A DNA stretch of 32,077 nucleotides from Gammaproteobacteria bacterium. Lineage in GTDB: Bacteria; Pseudomonadota; Gammaproteobacteria; Pseudomonadales; Pseudohongiellaceae. How positions within the stretch are numbered: the first letter of the stretch is position 1; the number at the start of each line of letters is the position of its first letter. Under the pieces are notes generated by a model. That model did not search any database and was not told the origin of the DNA. It was given only the letters and a program-made list of their open reading frames with translations. The DNA is taken from contig JASMER010000003.1 in assembly GCA_030752195.1 (NCBI GenBank), forward strand, positions 1-32,077, in the 5' to 3' direction. A program made the position numbers and the translations under genes. This document shows positions 4,422-19,955 of the stretch, one piece after another.

Positions 4422-4530
4422 GCGACAACTACCCTCTCAAACGAGGCTCTGGCGCAGTTCCGGGCACTTGCGAAATGACAGCCAGTAGTTGAAGATAAAC
4501 CATCACTGTTGAGCATTGAGGACAGCCCCC

Positions 4531-5538
4531 ATGACCCGCACAATAATAAAAATTAGCTCGTTGATTTTGCTGCTTTTTTTAGCAATTTCCGGCCAAGTAA
4601 ACGGTCAAGCAGATTCCAACTATCAGGCCCCGCGAACACCCGACGGACATCCCGATCTGCAGGGCGTGTGGGAAAATAACACCATCACCCCGGTGGAGAG
4701 ACCCGATGTCTTCGGCGACAAGGAATTACTGACTGACGAAGACGTAACTTTCATTCAACAGCGAATCGGCGAAATCATGGCGGCTGGAGAAGATGCGCTG
4801 TTTGGTGGCGGCGTTCTCGAAGCCGTGTTTAGCGGCGAAATCAACTCCTACGATCCAACTACCGGGAACTACGACTCGCAATGGATGGCGGAGCGGACCG
4901 TACACCGCCGTACTTCTCAGATCACAGACCCACCCAACGGTAAATATCCTCCGCGAACCGAAGCAGCCGTTGCCGCAGCCCGGGAATTGCGAGAGTGGCG
5001 CGCGAGCCATCCTGCGGATTCATGGACTGACCGACCGCTGGGAGAGCGCTGCCTGTCGTTCGGAGCGCCCCGGCTTGGCTCAGGCTATAACAGCTACTGG
5101 CAGATTGTGCAGTCGCGGGACACTGTGGTGATCTATCAGGAAATGGCCCACGATGCGCGCATCATCCCGATCATCGAACAACCCCATGCACCTGCCAGCG
5201 TGAAACTCTGGCACGGCGATTCACGCGGCTGGTGGGAAGGCGACACACTAGTCATCGAGACAACAAACTATTCTGATGCCAGTAGCAGCAGTCCGCAGAC
5301 GGACAGAAAAGTAAACGTTGAACGTATCACCAGAATCAGCGACAACGCACTTCAGTACCAGCTCACGTCGAGTGATCCAGGGCAATTTACCTCCCCGTAC
5401 ACCCGGGAGATCATTTTTGACCATACGCCTGACAAAATTTATGAATATGCCTGTCATGAAGGCAACTACGGGATGTACAACATTCTTTCTGGGCACCGGG
5501 CCGAAGAGAGAATGGCAGCGCAAAATCAGGACGATTAA
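4531..5538 (+). CDS. Secreted protein of uncharacterised family (paralog 1 of 3)
   Basis: Signal peptide MTRTIIKISSLILLLFLAISGQVNGQ; motifs DGHPDLQGVW, GERCLSFG, EMAHDARIIPI, GWWEGDTLVIETTNYSD, YEYACHEGNYGM shared with the ORFs at 11460 and 12337. ATG 4531 preferred to 4516 because it directly precedes the signal peptide. Confidence 0.85.
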   Translation: MTRTIIKISSLILLLFLAISGQVNGQADSNYQAPRTPDGHPDLQGVWENNTITPVERPDVFGDKELLTDEDVTFIQQRIGEIMAAGEDALFGGGVLEAVFSGEINSYDPTTGNYDSQWMAERTVHRRTSQITDPPNGKYPPRTEAAVAAARELREWRASHPADSWTDRPLGERCLSFGAPRLGSGYNSYWQIVQSRDTVVIYQEMAHDARIIPIIEQPHAPASVKLWHGDSRGWWEGDTLVIETTNYSDASSSSPQTDRKVNVERITRISDNALQYQLTSSDPGQFTSPYTREIIFDHTPDKIYEYACHEGNYGMYNILSGHRAEERMAAQNQDD

Positions 5539-11234: not shown

Positions 11235-11459
11235 AACGGCCTAGACGCGCCTGAAGGTGCACGTAGTGAGTATCATTGGTTCGTGCCGGGCGAGGACAGC
11301 AGATTTTTCTTTCTGCGCGACATACGGCACAATCGGAGGGAGTGGCATGATCACTGATGCCACCCATCGTAATGTAGCCAACGGGGTACATATGCGACCA
11401 CAATAACAAGTAAATCAGGTTCCAGATCTTTTATCATGGCACCCTGCACGGAGACATCA

Positions 11460-12320
11460 ATGTCCTTCAAGCAAAGATCTTATTTCAGCTTTCTACGACT
11501 GTCTGTTCTGATGGTGATGCTTACGGGCCATCTCCCGCTGAGCGGTCAGGAAATTCCACGCCTCTCGAGTGGACTGCCAGACTTTAATGGTGTCTGGCAA
11601 GTCTTGAACGAAGCAAACTGGGATTTAGAACCGCACATTGCGAGACACTCGGTGATGATGCGGGAAGGTCCGGTAAATGCTGTGCCTGCTGCAGAAACAC
11701 TCGCAGCCGGGGCCGTTCTGTCGGTACCCGGTTCCATGGGTGTCATTGAAGGTGGCGGCCGGATTCCTTACAACGAGCAAGCTCGCAGGGTCAAAGAAGA
11801 CAACGCGGCCAACTGGATCACCCGCGATCCTGAAGTTAAGTGCTATATGCCGGGAGTGCCGAGGGCGACCTACCTGCCACACCCGTTTCAGATCATCCAG
11901 AGTGATAACGATTTTTTTATTGCCTATCAGTTTGCAGGCGCCGTACGGGATATTTACCTCGAAGACCCGGGTCCAGCACCGCTTGACTCCTGGATGGGGT
12001 GGTCCGCAGGCCGCTGGGACGGAGACACGTTGGTCGTCGAGGTGACGGGATTGCACGACGGCACCTGGCTGGACCGCGCCGGCAGTCATCACAGCTATCA
12101 GATGAAAGTCACCGAGCGCTACACCCTGATGGGCCCCAATCACATCGACTATGAGGCGACAATTGAAGATCCCTTGGTACTGACCGAACCCTTTACCATC
12201 AAAATGCCTATTTACCGCCGCATGGAATCTGACGCCCGAATCATGGATTTCCGATGTGTCGAATTCGTTGAAGAGCTTATTTATGGTGAGTATCGCAGAT
12301 ACCCGCTTCCCCGAGATTGA
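11460..12320 (+). CDS. Secreted protein of uncharacterised family (paralog 2 of 3, most divergent)
   Basis: Signal peptide SFLRLSVLMVMLTGHLPLSGQ; GLPDFNGVW; EVKCYMPG; AGRWDGDTLVVEVTGLHD; IMDFRCVEFVEE aligns with the CHE region of the other paralogs. Confidence 0.83.
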   Translation: MSFKQRSYFSFLRLSVLMVMLTGHLPLSGQEIPRLSSGLPDFNGVWQVLNEANWDLEPHIARHSVMMREGPVNAVPAAETLAAGAVLSVPGSMGVIEGGGRIPYNEQARRVKEDNAANWITRDPEVKCYMPGVPRATYLPHPFQIIQSDNDFFIAYQFAGAVRDIYLEDPGPAPLDSWMGWSAGRWDGDTLVVEVTGLHDGTWLDRAGSHHSYQMKVTERYTLMGPNHIDYEATIEDPLVLTEPFTIKMPIYRRMESDARIMDFRCVEFVEELIYGEYRRYPLPRD

Positions 12321-12336
12321 GTTCAGGAGCATGCAC

Positions 12337-13452
12337 ATGAAAACTTCAAAAAAACGTTCCACTTACCTGCTTGTTGTTGCCGGGTTCTGCATCATGCCCC
12401 CCAGCCTGGCGCAGAACGGTGAAATTCCCCGTACCGCCGATGGCAAACCGGATTTTTCCGGCACTTACGACGTGTCTACGCTGACGCCATTTCAACGTCC
12501 CTCTCGATTCGGAAATCGGCTGATCCTGACCAACGATGAAGCCTTTGGCATTGCTAATGCCGAATTCGAGCGTAAAGAAGAGAATCAGGTGGGCAGTGAC
12601 CCCGACCGTTCGGCACCCCCTCAAGGTGGAGATGGTTCTACGGGTGCTGCCGGCAATGTCGGGGGCTATAACACATTCTGGGTAGATAACGGCACAGATG
12701 TGGTCCGCATAAACAGCGAATTCAGATCGTCCATTATTACCGACCCGCTTAACGGCAGGATGCCACCCGTAACCGATGCACTGCGTGATGCGCAGCGTGC
12801 GGCTCTGGGTGCGGGCGAAGCGCCACGCCGGGAAGGTGGAGCAAATGATGGTACAGCCTACTGGCTGGATGCGGGACTAGATGCACCCGGCCCCTACGAC
12901 AATCCCGAAAACCGGCCGTTTGCGGAGCGCTGCATCATGTCATTTGGCTCCACTGCAGGGCCACCGATGCTTCCCGCACTTTACAACAACCACAAACGCA
13001 TCGTGCAAACGGAAGACACGATTCTTATTCAGATTGAAATGGTGCACGAAGCGCGCATCGTCAGAATGAACGCCGAGCACGACCCGTCTAACATTCAAAA
13101 ATGGCTCGGCGATTCTATCGGATGGTGGGAAGGAGACACTCTGGTGGTTGAGACGACAAACTTCAGGGACACCCCCAATTTCTCGCGCGGCTCAGCCAAT
13201 ATGAAGGTCACAGAATACTTTGAGTACGAGAACCCCGACAAGGTGATATACCGCTTTACCGTAGAGGACCCTTCCGTGTGGACTGCTTCTTTCAGCGGCG
13301 AGTACTCGTGGCCACGCACCGACAACAAGCTGTTCGAGTATGCTTGTCATGAAGCGAACTATGCACTAGAAGGCATCATGAAAGGCGCTCGTGTACTAGA
13401 AGCAGAATACCGGGGTGAAGATCCGGGCGGTATCGCCAATCCGACTCATTAA
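12337..13452 (+). CDS. Secreted protein of uncharacterised family (paralog 3 of 3)
   Basis: Signal peptide STYLLVVAGFCIMPPSLAQ; DGKPDFSGTYDV; AERCIMSFG; EMVHEARIVRM; WLGDSIGWWEGDTLVVETTNFRD; FEYACHEANYALEGI. AGGAG at 12325-12329, 7 nt before ATG 12337. Confidence 0.86.
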   Translation: MKTSKKRSTYLLVVAGFCIMPPSLAQNGEIPRTADGKPDFSGTYDVSTLTPFQRPSRFGNRLILTNDEAFGIANAEFERKEENQVGSDPDRSAPPQGGDGSTGAAGNVGGYNTFWVDNGTDVVRINSEFRSSIITDPLNGRMPPVTDALRDAQRAALGAGEAPRREGGANDGTAYWLDAGLDAPGPYDNPENRPFAERCIMSFGSTAGPPMLPALYNNHKRIVQTEDTILIQIEMVHEARIVRMNAEHDPSNIQKWLGDSIGWWEGDTLVVETTNFRDTPNFSRGSANMKVTEYFEYENPDKVIYRFTVEDPSVWTASFSGEYSWPRTDNKLFEYACHEANYALEGIMKGARVLEAEYRGEDPGGIANPTH

Positions 13453-15244: not shown

Positions 15245-16447
15245 TCAGCTAATCACCAGCGTGCGTGGCATTTGACCAAAATTCTCCCAGCGGCTGACTT
15301 TTTCAGGCAATTCACTTTGAGCCGGCTGAACGTTCCCATTCGCGTCCGTCACGCGTGAGACAATAGTATGCTCTCCGGCACCCGGATTGCTCCACGGCAT
15401 AGAGAACAGCTTCCAGGAATACTGACTGGAGCGCGGATCTATTTCGGCACGCTGCCAGGGCCCATCATCAATCTTCACCTCTACGCTCTGCAGCGGCGTG
15501 CCATCGTTCAGCACAAAACCGGTAATCGTAAACTCGTCTGCCACTCGGCTCACCCGAACAATGGCCGATTTGAGATTAATGCGCGTCACGGAGTTTTCAA
15601 CCCAGCGCTCTTGATCCCCTACACGCTCTTTTTTCAGAGTGACGTAATCACGACCCATGAATCTGCCCATGTATCGTCGGTCCTGCACATGAATCTGGGT
15701 CAGCCACTTCACGTTTGCCACCCCGTAAAACCCGGGCACAAGCAGCCTGACAGGACGGCCATGGCCTTGCGGCAAGGCTTCTCCATTCATCTGCAGCGCC
15801 AGCATGTTGACGTCACGCATCGCATCGACTAACGGCAGGCTTCGGGCGAAGGCCTGCTCAACCTCCGTCTCCCTGATTTCCTCGACGCCGATATCGCCGC
15901 CGAAAAACACGATTTCCTTCCCTTCCGGCTGAATACCGGCCGCCTCAAGCAGATCTCTGAGCCGTACACCACGCCAGTTTGCGTTGCCAATCAGGCCCTG
16001 AAAAATCCCGAGCGGCCGATTGCCACCACACTCGAAGCCGGCATCGAGATCAACCTGCGGCATAGCCTGCAGGTCCGCAAGGGAATATTCGATTGGATTA
16101 TCCACCAGACCCGTGATCTGCAGACGATAGCTGGGCAAATCAAGCTCGGGCTGACCGTAGTGCTGGACCACATAGAAATCCTGGTTGTCCGTGTAAAAGC
16201 TGTCCGAGGAAATCTGCCGGGTATCGAGGAAGTGGGTTCCTCCGGGCCGCGCAGGTGGTCGGGAATAATCTTCCGGCATATCATTGAACGGTACAAGCTC
16301 TTCACCTTGAGCGAGTGCCGGCAGGACCCATGGAGGTGCCGACGCGACGGCGCCGGCGGCAAGCCCAGCGTTCACGGTCTTTTTAATTGCTGCTCTGCGC
16401 GAAATCTTCTGCGACTCCGATTCGCTTGATAGTTCGTGGTCAGACAT
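15245..16447 (-). CDS. Tat-exported sulfite oxidase-like molybdopterin oxidoreductase
   Basis: Twin-Arg signal SRRAAIKKTVNAGLAAGAVASAPPWVLPALAQ; molybdenum-ligand Cys in DAGFECGGNRPLG; NANWRGVRLRDLLEAAG; GHGRPVRLLVPGFYGVANVKWLTQIHV. Confidence 0.92.
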   Translation of the reverse strand: MSDHELSSESESQKISRRAAIKKTVNAGLAAGAVASAPPWVLPALAQGEELVPFNDMPEDYSRPPARPGGTHFLDTRQISSDSFYTDNQDFYVVQHYGQPELDLPSYRLQITGLVDNPIEYSLADLQAMPQVDLDAGFECGGNRPLGIFQGLIGNANWRGVRLRDLLEAAGIQPEGKEIVFFGGDIGVEEIRETEVEQAFARSLPLVDAMRDVNMLALQMNGEALPQGHGRPVRLLVPGFYGVANVKWLTQIHVQDRRYMGRFMGRDYVTLKKERVGDQERWVENSVTRINLKSAIVRVSRVADEFTITGFVLNDGTPLQSVEVKIDDGPWQRAEIDPRSSQYSWKLFSMPWSNPGAGEHTIVSRVTDANGNVQPAQSELPEKVSRWENFGQMPRTLVIS

Positions 16448-16583: not shown

Positions 16584-17588
16584 CTAGGCCGCTTTTTGAC
16601 TCACCAAATCCCGCGCCTCCAGCGCTAGGCCGAAAGAGCGCACCCGCGTATCATGGTCATAGATTGAACTAACACACATCAACTCATCAGCACCTGTACG
16701 CATCAGGAACTCGCCCATCTGATTCGCCGCACTCTGAACTGAGCCGACCGCCGAGCATCGGGTGATCATCTCCAGCATGGCCGCTTCCGGAGCGCTCAAG
16801 CTTGCCTCAAGCCCCTCCACCGGTGGCGGCAGCTGTATCGGGTTTCCCCGTCGAAGCGACAGCATGGACTGCAGAGCAGAAGAGCGCAGATACAGCGCCT
16901 CCTCGTCTGTGTCCGCGACGAAGACGTTATAGCCAAGCATGACATGAGGTTTTTGAAGCTGTTCGGACGGTTTGAAACGCTCGCGATAGATGGCTATGGC
17001 CTGCATCATGTCTTGAGGCGCGAAGTGTGACGCAAAGGCATAGGGCAAGCCAAGCGCAGCCGCGAGTTGGGCGCCGAACAGGCTTGAACCGAGAATCCAC
17101 AGCGGTACATTGGTGCCGGCGCCGGGCGTGGCGACCACCGCCTGCCCCTCGCTGGCCTCTCTCAGATAGTGCTGGAGTTCCACCACATCGTTGGGAAAAT
17201 TGTCGGCACTCCCGGTGAGATTTCTGCGCAGGGCATGAGCAGTCCGCTGATCAGTTCCCGGTGCCCGACCCAGCCCCAGATCGATACGTCCGGGATAGAG
17301 AGAAGCAAGAGTGCCGAATTGCTCGGCAACCACCAGTGGAGCATGATTGGGAAGCATGATTCCCCCGGAACCCACCCGAATTTTCGAAGTACCATTCGCG
17401 ATGTAGCCGATCACCACCGCCGTCGCTGCACTGGCAATGCCTTTCATGTTGTGATGTTCGGCAACCCAGTATCGATGATAGCCAAAACCCTCGGCCGCCC
17501 GGGCGAGCTTTAGTGTGTTGCTCAGCGCCTCTGCAGGAGAGCTGCCTTGCGGCACTGGCGCCAGATCAAGAACTGAAAGCGTGGTCAT
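16584..17588 (-). CDS. Luciferase-like (LLM class) flavin-dependent oxidoreductase
   Basis: [22 protein letters not shown]...[29 protein letters not shown]...[44 protein letters not shown]. Confidence 0.94.
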
Positions 17589-17677: not shown

Positions 17678-18985
17678 CTACCTCGCACGCCGTTCAGCAA
17701 TGAGTCGCTCATATTCTTCTTGCCCGAGGTAGGTCACATCAACCCAGTTGTGCGCCATCTCATCAACGGTACGATCACCCCAGCCTACCCATTGGTTCGG
17801 GTCCGGGTTGTAGGGATTTTGTGCAGTGTTGTCATGCCAGGCCGTCGTCACAATCATTGTGCCTTTGGGCACGATTGGCGCTGATTCTTCCTCATACACG
17901 TAATTGATTTGCCAATTCCATTGGAAGTTGTCTACGAAGGACAGCATCTCACGCTCCCCGTTCGGATAAATGGCTTCCATGGACATCGCCTTGCCTCTCA
18001 TATGCATGTGCGGCTGAAAGTTTTCAATGCGGGCAGGTGCGGACAACACGAATGTCCCCTGAGTCACGGCGATTTCATTCGGCGGTATGTCAAGGCTGTG
18101 CGGCCCCTGCGCGTCGAACATACTGAGAATAGTGCGGTGCTCAGGCGGCTCATCATGAAACCAGACACCCAGCTCAACCTGCGCCTGCGGCACTCTTTCC
18201 CCGTTCGCATGTAGATGCATTTCCCACATAATCTGGGACCCGGGCATCATCAATTTACCCGTATCTGGGCGAAAAATCTGGCCAGCTTTACCAACCGCCC
18301 ATTCCATAAAGAGACTCGGCCCGAATGGCACATCAACATCTTCAGGCAAGCCCCGTTTGCCGTCTTCCTGCTGCAGCAAAAATGCCAGAGAATGATGCAC
18401 CACTCTGCGGCTTGCATCATTCTTAGGACGGATCTCAATGGCTTTTACCCAGCGCTCCTCCGTGAGTCCGGTCGGAGTCATCGGACGAAACCATTTGTCC
18501 TGGGTGACAGCGGCCAGATCATAGGGCTCCGATTCGACCACCAAATCCGGAGGGCTTCCCATCTGATTCTCAAGACGCCAGACCAGCGCATCGTTAAATT
18601 CAAGTGAGGCCGGTGCCTGTGCAGGATCACCTTCCAGTGCACCCTGATCGACCCAAGCCAGAATCGTGGCGCGCTCTGCCTCAGTGAGGCCCCGGTCGTT
18701 GGTAAACTCCTGAATACCGACCTGCGGGTTAACGTGCCAGGGAGGCATTACACGATTTTCGACGCGATAGCGAATCACCGGCGCAAACAGCTTGGCCTCT
18801 TCATAGGTCAACAGCGGCATGGGCGCGATGGAGTTGGGCCGGTGGCACTCCTGACATTTTTCCTGAAAGATCGCAGCAACATCACCGGTCCAGGTGACCT
18901 CTCGATCCGACTCGGACTGCCCGAGTGTCCAGCCTGATGTCATTGCCGCAGCAATTGCCACGCTCCAGATTTTTAGCAGTCTCAT
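17678..18985 (-). CDS. Cytochrome c domain fused to copper type II (PHM/DBM-like) monooxygenase domain
   Basis: Signal peptide; CQECH heme c motif with NRVMPPWH; downstream VVHHSLAFLL, WEMHLHANGE, QPHMHMRGKAMS and GWGDRTVDEMAHNW match the order of PHM copper ligands (HH, H, HxH, M). Confidence 0.85.
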   Translation of the reverse strand: MRLLKIWSVAIAAAMTSGWTLGQSESDREVTWTGDVAAIFQEKCQECHRPNSIAPMPLLTYEEAKLFAPVIRYRVENRVMPPWHVNPQVGIQEFTNDRGLTEAERATILAWVDQGALEGDPAQAPASLEFNDALVWRLENQMGSPPDLVVESEPYDLAAVTQDKWFRPMTPTGLTEERWVKAIEIRPKNDASRRVVHHSLAFLLQQEDGKRGLPEDVDVPFGPSLFMEWAVGKAGQIFRPDTGKLMMPGSQIMWEMHLHANGERVPQAQVELGVWFHDEPPEHRTILSMFDAQGPHSLDIPPNEIAVTQGTFVLSAPARIENFQPHMHMRGKAMSMEAIYPNGEREMLSFVDNFQWNWQINYVYEEESAPIVPKGTMIVTTAWHDNTAQNPYNPDPNQWVGWGDRTVDEMAHNWVDVTYLGQEEYERLIAERRAR

Positions 18986-19055: not shown

Positions 19056-19955
19056 TTAGTCTGTTACCGTTATTTTAACGAAGCTGTTGGTCCAGCAACA
19101 CTGAGAATGCCCTGCCATCTCCGGACCGCCGAGGTCAGTCAGTCGGACTCTGAGCAGATAGTCACCTGGTTCACTAAAAACAACCTCCGTTGCGACCTGA
19201 CCACCCTCTGCCGGTATTTTTGCAGTCTGCTGGTTGAACGACACAGCACCCGGCCCCTGATGCTGAAACCAGGTCAGATCGATCGGCGGCGTTGAGCCAC
19301 TCTGTGCAACAAACATCGCGGCTATCCCGCTGACTTTCCCATCATCGCTTGCCCATGTCTCAATGGTGACAGGCTCATCCACCCGGGCAGTCAATGGACC
19401 CGCTATGATACCACCAGGGCCTCTACCGGTCGGGCCATCCTCTTCAAAGCTGATTTCAGGCGGCAAATTACCGTTCGCATCCCCTACTATGGCATCAATG
19501 ATGTAGTCGGCATCAAGATTGGCAGGAACATGAAACACCTTGCCCTGATTTTCCAGATGCCAGGCGATCTCACCCTCATGGTTCGCCGGCACGGTCACTG
19601 TGAACACGCCCCAGTGTCGTTCAACTTCAAACCGCGTGGGCTGACCCTGGTTAGGCAGAGCGTCTGGCGCACCCACGATGCGGTTTGATGGCCCAATCGG
19701 AATATTGACCACCTCTTCCGTATTGCGATTGTAGTAGCCGAACGACAGAGCCAGGCTGCCATCTTCATTTTCATACCAGCCTTCATAGGCAGGGGTCACC
19801 GTTTGGCCGGAACGTAATCCGAGATCCTTTCCCAGCGGCAACAGTTCAACAGGCAGTGGCGTACCCTGTGCGTAGACGCCCGCGGCAACCAGAGAACTGG
19901 TCAGCACAACCGGGCAAACCGCGACAGCGCGAACTGACAGACTTCGTGTTTTCAT
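19056..19955 (-). CDS. Secreted protein of unknown function, probable partner of the downstream copper/heme protein
   Basis: 299 aa; signal peptide VRAVAVCPVVLTSSLVAAGVYAQ; beta-rich sequence with Ig-like terminal strands (TEVVFSEPGDYLLRVRLTDLG); same strand, about 70 bp upstream of the copper/heme gene. Confidence 0.8.
   Translation of the reverse strand: MKTRSLSVRAVAVCPVVLTSSLVAAGVYAQGTPLPVELLPLGKDLGLRSGQTVTPAYEGWYENEDGSLALSFGYYNRNTEEVVNIPIGPSNRIVGAPDALPNQGQPTRFEVERHWGVFTVTVPANHEGEIAWHLENQGKVFHVPANLDADYIIDAIVGDANGNLPPEISFEEDGPTGRGPGGIIAGPLTARVDEPVTIETWASDDGKVSGIAAMFVAQSGSTPPIDLTWFQHQGPGAVSFNQQTAKIPAEGGQVATEVVFSEPGDYLLRVRLTDLGGPEMAGHSQCCWTNSFVKITVTD

Follow-up and report, generated by a model that had tools for sequence, protein, structure and literature searches.

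A gene of a Pseudohongiellaceae genome (Gammaproteobacteria bacterium, GCA_030752195.1, contig JASMER010000003.1) encodes a protein in which a predicted c-type heme domain precedes a two-copper double jelly-roll of the kind seen in peptidylglycine alpha-hydroxylating monooxygenase (PHM) and DBM, an assignment supported by conserved ligands and a structural model. The gene lies in the 32,077-nt stretch analyzed here (positions 1 to 32,077, hereafter the window). We consider it probable, though well short of certain, that the product is secreted, into the periplasm or out of the cell, and acts there as a two-copper monooxygenase with its own electron inlet, which hydroxylates a C-H bond, works with an Ig-like partner, and, at many homologous loci, is coupled to a dehydrogenase. 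PHM and DBM, the type of oxygenase behind animal hormones and noradrenaline, are familiar as ascorbate-dependent enzymes of the eukaryotic secretory pathway, and debate continues over the path of electrons to their two coppers and across the wide gap between them. A search of the open literature, with subscription papers mostly outside its scope, found no description of a bacterial cytochrome c-PHM fusion.

Heme and copper ligands in a PHM-like fold

The open reading frame lies on the minus strand, at exactly the position that the preliminary description had given, and every motif string quoted there is present (Table 1). Close relatives start at the same Met, which supports the assigned start. 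By inspection, the precursor appears to open with a Sec-type signal peptide; confidence in the AlphaFold model is low over residues 1-24. Helices in the modelled cytochrome domain span residues 32-43, 61-65, 68-77, and 102-113. CQECH together with M80, which lies within an invariant MPP motif, gives the combination of CxxCH and distal Met that marks class I c-type cytochromes, with M80 as the putative axial ligand. The protein has only two cysteines, Cys44 and Cys47, both within CxxCH, and its first histidine is H48 of the same motif. With Pfam, the window protein fell below the gathering scores of PF01082 and PF03712 (14.6 bits versus 23 for the latter) and below the cut-offs of Cytochrome_CBB3 and Cytochrom_C, and PF13442 was matched at E<0.1 by 33 of 35 relatives. 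An NCBIfam search of the window protein returned no family.

Table 1. Positions in the window of the oxygenase gene, its predicted functional features, and the adjoining partner gene.
Feature	Position	Strand	Remarks
Heme c-dicopper monooxygenase ORF	17678..18985	-	435 aa, ATG start
Signal peptide, residues 1-23	18917..18985	-	By inspection; MRLLKIWSVAIAAAMTSGWTLGQ
c-type cytochrome domain, about residues 28-120	18626..18904	-	Pfam and modelled helices
CQECH heme c attachment motif, residues 44-48	18842..18856	-	C44, C47, H48: 69/69 homologs with letters
M80 in MPPW, candidate axial heme ligand	18746..18748	-	70/70 homologs
PHM-like double jelly-roll core, about residues 126-420	17726..18610	-	Foldseek best matches 3mll, 1phm, others
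H197-H198, CuH ligands (predicted)	18392..18397	-	VVHHSLAFLL; 70/70 homologs; aligned with DBH H262/H263
H257, third CuH ligand (predicted)	18215..18217	-	WEMHLHANGE; 70/70 homologs; aligned with DBH H333
H326-M-H328, CuM ligands (predicted)	18002..18010	-	In QPHMHMRGKAMS; 67/70 homologs; aligned with DBH H412/H414
M410, CuM Met ligand (predicted)	17756..17758	-	In GDRTVDEMAHNW; 68/68 homologs with letters; aligned via L086 with rat PHM DEM motif
Partner gene	19056..19955	-	Secreted 299-aa protein, two Ig-like beta-sandwich domains; 70 bp upstream of oxygenase

A homolog scan with one genome per species yielded 38 loci, and at 35 the match was an extended one; the genomes are Gammaproteobacteria (several carrying a Pseudohongiella or Pseudomonadales label), Gemmatimonadota, and Acidobacteriota. 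Only 27 columns of the 35-member alignment were invariant, and eight of these are predicted heme or copper ligands or M80 (C44, C47, H48, M80, H197, H198, H257, and M410); H326 and H328 were conserved at 90% or more. As judged from these columns, the motif set lies far beyond chance. The proposal that a heme c motif is followed by HH + H and HxH + M in the PHM/DBM order was borne out, with conservation across 70 homologs. The three homologs that depart from H326/H328 group together in the tree as a single supported subfamily from three genomes. These are long forms (L048:3781-5418 (-), L072:877-2628 (-), and L085:479-2191 (-)) in which both CuM histidines are replaced (R.N) and the CuH, CxxCH, and Met motifs are retained; by its aligned residues, this subfamily is a natural CuM-altered variant. 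Long forms (L046:952-2658 (+), L044, L045, and L047) also carry an extra N-terminal region with no obvious catalytic cysteine, called AhpC/TSA-like from the Pfam result for the one long form tested.

The PHM double jelly roll, which the preliminary description had named beforehand as the fold its reading depended on, was recovered in an AlphaFold2 model built with the family alignment as input (pLDDT 85, pTM 0.81). Foldseek matches to the PDB at ranks 1-31 were all PHM or DBM (E 2.7e-13 to 1.4e-10, probability 1.00), and PNGase, another double jelly-roll enzyme, appeared at rank 33 (E 4.3e-6). A single-sequence search of the PDB with the window protein gave no matches, so profiles were required. 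The best PDB match of the family profile was human DBH (4zel, E 1.1e-4), and in this alignment the HH, H, and HxH of the family fall in register with H262, H263, H333, H412, and H414 (chain numbering plus 39), the residues named as copper ligands in the structure paper (PMC4846438).

The DBH match was lost with a core-only profile (A3), and the register of the Met was therefore set through L086, a relative from a Pseudomonadota genome (G386) that was retrieved with the Pfam model. L086 aligned with residues 30-411 of the window protein (E 3e-30; E 1e-37 in the profile comparison) and, through the DEM motif, with rat PHM (E 2.8e-7). Five predicted copper ligands were in this way aligned directly with crystal ligands of human DBH, and all six with those of rat PHM via L086, giving three histidines for the putative CuH site and HxH plus M410 for the putative CuM site. 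Together with the fold, the six mapped ligands support the earlier claim of a heme c domain fused to a PHM/DBM-type two-copper core. L086 resembles the window protein (25% identity) in having its own CxxCH cytochrome c domain, a Cu2_monooxygenase region, and all ligands, but differs in scoring above both Pfam Cu2_monoox cut-offs (PF01082 and PF03712) and in being an apparent lipoprotein. The cytochrome c-PHM combination is thus visible in known Pfam families, and L086 shows that the predicted fusion extends beyond the family of the window protein.

A proposed route from heme c to the coppers

Rat PHM (1phm, 3mll) shares with the window protein the double jelly-roll, the CuH HH + H and CuM HxH + M ligands in the same order, and the DEM motif. 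It differs in that the window protein has a heme c domain in front and, with no cysteines beyond the heme pair, lacks the disulfides of PHM/DBM copper domains, and in that short-form cytochrome c-PHM genes are accompanied by an Ig-like partner. Human DBH (4zel) is alike in its copper core, ligand register, and extra N-terminal domain; however, that domain is DOMON in DBH and a c-type cytochrome here, and DBH is ascorbate-dependent and disulfide-rich. The residues aligned with R240, N316, and Y318, which we take to be the peptide carboxylate anchors of PHM, are Q324, H412, and W414, and for this reason we do not expect the window protein to hydroxylate peptidylglycine.

In the mechanism that we favor, electrons from periplasmic carriers would enter the heme c domain and pass to CuH (H197, H198, and H257) and then to CuM (H326, H328, and M410), where O2 would be split and a C-H bond of a non-peptidylglycine substrate hydroxylated. 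That the heme domain delivers electrons to the copper centers, in place of ascorbate, is plausible by analogy with CjX183, the cytochrome c domain of Cellvibrio Cbp2D, which passes electrons to LPMOs and is thus a documented case in which secreted copper monooxygenases of bacteria are reduced by a c-type cytochrome domain (PMC8981238). Both systems pair these two components, but CjX183 acts on separate one-copper LPMO proteins, whereas the heme domain here is fused to a predicted two-copper enzyme. Identity of the window protein as an LPMO was rejected, as it has no histidine brace and the region around its predicted mature N-terminus contains no His. With heme built into the enzyme, a single protein of this family would be enough to follow the entry of electrons optically.

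It is unlikely that hydroxylation is PHM-like with the heme outside the electron path, in a structural, sensor, or docking role, and with ascorbate-like or other small reductants feeding CuH. Such an arrangement would agree with the use of ascorbate by eukaryotic PHM and DBM (PMC4846438), and the AhpC/TSA-like domain of the long forms, with no obvious catalytic cysteine, suggests that extra domains need not be redox-active. However, CxxCH and M80 occur in every homolog that spans them, which is stricter than a spacer needs, and a relative as distant as L086 carries a similar heme domain. It is quite unlikely that the protein is not an oxygenase at all and instead transfers electrons, handles copper, or acts as an oxidase, with its PHM-type coppers and heme passing electrons to O2 or other acceptors. 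Some members cannot use a normal CuM site, since L048, L072, and L085 have lost both CuM histidines and retain the CuH and heme motifs, but the complete CuM site, where PHM and DBM carry out hydroxylation, is intact in almost the whole family.

An Ig-like partner and a quinoprotein neighbor

The partner gene adjoins the enzyme gene in all three groups, lying upstream in Gammaproteobacteria and Gemmatimonadota orthologs and downstream in Acidobacteriota loci. When three well-covered genomes of the genus were searched independently with a profile of each protein, 25 of the 27 partner hits abutted a same-strand oxygenase gene, where chance alone would give about 1% per gene; the other two were a fragment beside a full partner gene and one gene standing alone. 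Across the fetched loci, the partner was present with 57 of 65 short-form enzymes versus none of seven long forms, and several of the short forms that had none were at contig ends or were extra tandem copies. Among 12 pairs in a single genome, oxygenase and partner distances were correlated (r = 0.91; 0 of 2,000 permutations), consistent with the two genes having duplicated and diverged together. From these patterns, the Ig-like protein appears to be a near-obligate partner of the short-form oxygenase, working with it, we presume, as a subunit or a substrate-presenting protein. In two tandem arrays (L072:3977-8567 (+) and L085:3933-7281 (+)), two or three cytochrome c-PHM genes share one partner gene.

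The AlphaFold model of the partner (pLDDT 85) returned only generic Ig-like fold matches in Foldseek, and no conserved metal-ligand set was found among its members. A nominal profile match to the designed protein Tet4 was dismissed, no single domain being significant. The tandem beta-sandwiches, weak matches of which some are to carbohydrate-active enzymes, and weak PKD matches in 13 of 36 partner members would suit a carbohydrate-binding module, and cytochrome domains feed bacterial LPMOs (PMC8981238). Nevertheless, LPMO-like polysaccharide oxidation is very unlikely to be the role of this enzyme: its mature N-terminus is not His and a histidine brace is missing, the partner's fold matches are generic, and no glycoside hydrolase neighbors were seen within the window.

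A PQQ-type dehydrogenase gene lies within 3 kb of 23 of the 65 short forms in the fetched loci, and in several Gemmatimonadota loci (L025, L027, and L028) it abuts or overlaps the enzyme gene. At L024 and L028, a small cytochrome c gene may come next, and at L053, a paralog in the window genome, a CxxCH domain forms part of the dehydrogenase itself. In the two-copper hydroxylase scheme, the dehydrogenase of many homologous loci would oxidize the alcohol product and return electrons, in some cases with a cytochrome c domain of its own. No PQQ dehydrogenase occurs within the 32,077-nt window. Use of PQQ is uncertain because pqqC is patchy, being found in only 5 of 15 genomes of the genus and not in that of the window, and because the neighboring quinoproteins also match the "empty quinoprotein" model, below its cut-off.

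Genes for metallo-beta-lactamase-like proteins with an NHL propeller (590-618 aa; L053:133-1905 (-), L083:7507-9279 (+), and L080:65-1921 (-)) adjoin PQQ-type dehydrogenase and cytochrome c-PHM genes. That the enzyme is half of a bacterial PHM/PAL-like pair, in which a nearby NHL beta-propeller would act as the lyase that cleaves the hydroxylated product, is highly improbable: such propellers lie near 8 fetched loci and both of those examined gave matches to rat PAL structures (E 2.6e-7 and 1.1e-9), but other NHL proteins outscore PAL, most loci have no such gene, and the PHM peptide-carboxylate anchors are not conserved in the window protein.

Other genes of the window were also noted. Directly downstream of the oxygenase are a luciferase-like (MsnO8-type) monooxygenase (16584-17588 (-)) and a molybdopterin sulfite-oxidase-like protein (15245-16447 (-)); both are conserved in the closest relatives only. 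Three members of one secreted family with the motif PRTxDGxPDfxGvW (4516-5538, 11436-12320, and 12256-13452, all (+)), two of which (11436-12320 and 12256-13452) overlap in the called frames, gave no significant Pfam match, and the family is repeated in related loci.

Paralog expansion and distribution

The window protein is one of a large paralogous family, a point that, like the partner gene and the frequent PQQ-type dehydrogenase neighbors, had escaped the preliminary description. Its genome (2.07 Mb, 79% complete) holds 12 family matches and 18 other genomes of the same genus hold 11 to 27 copies each, while no match was found in 10 genomes representing other families of the order. A survey of 274 genomes of the class added just three with a match at 1e-20, one match each, in longer open frames.

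We tentatively suggest, as a possibility that is somewhat doubtful at present, that these genes represent an undescribed periplasmic module, in which a heme c-wired dicopper hydroxylase is joined by an Ig-like partner and often by an electron-recycling quinoprotein, and which serves as an organic-matter arsenal in three phyla. Such a module would parallel, in soluble form, the coupling of methane monooxygenase to methanol dehydrogenase. If so, the 11-27 paralogs per genome in a marine Pseudohongiellaceae lineage would form an arsenal oxidizing dissolved organic matter, and the module would be common to Pseudohongiellaceae, Gemmatimonadota, and Acidobacteriota. The family would then point to a large, uncharacterized class of secreted C-H oxidizing enzymes in marine and soil bacteria, accompanied by an equally uncharacterized partner protein family, and suggests that bacteria may oxidize organic matter outside the cell by an uncharacterized route.

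In the tree, the window protein falls in a Gammaproteobacteria clade next to Gemmatimonadota and then Acidobacteriota, and paralogs from the same genus sit on other deep branches. This placement suggests that transfer between phyla, together with old duplications, shaped the family.
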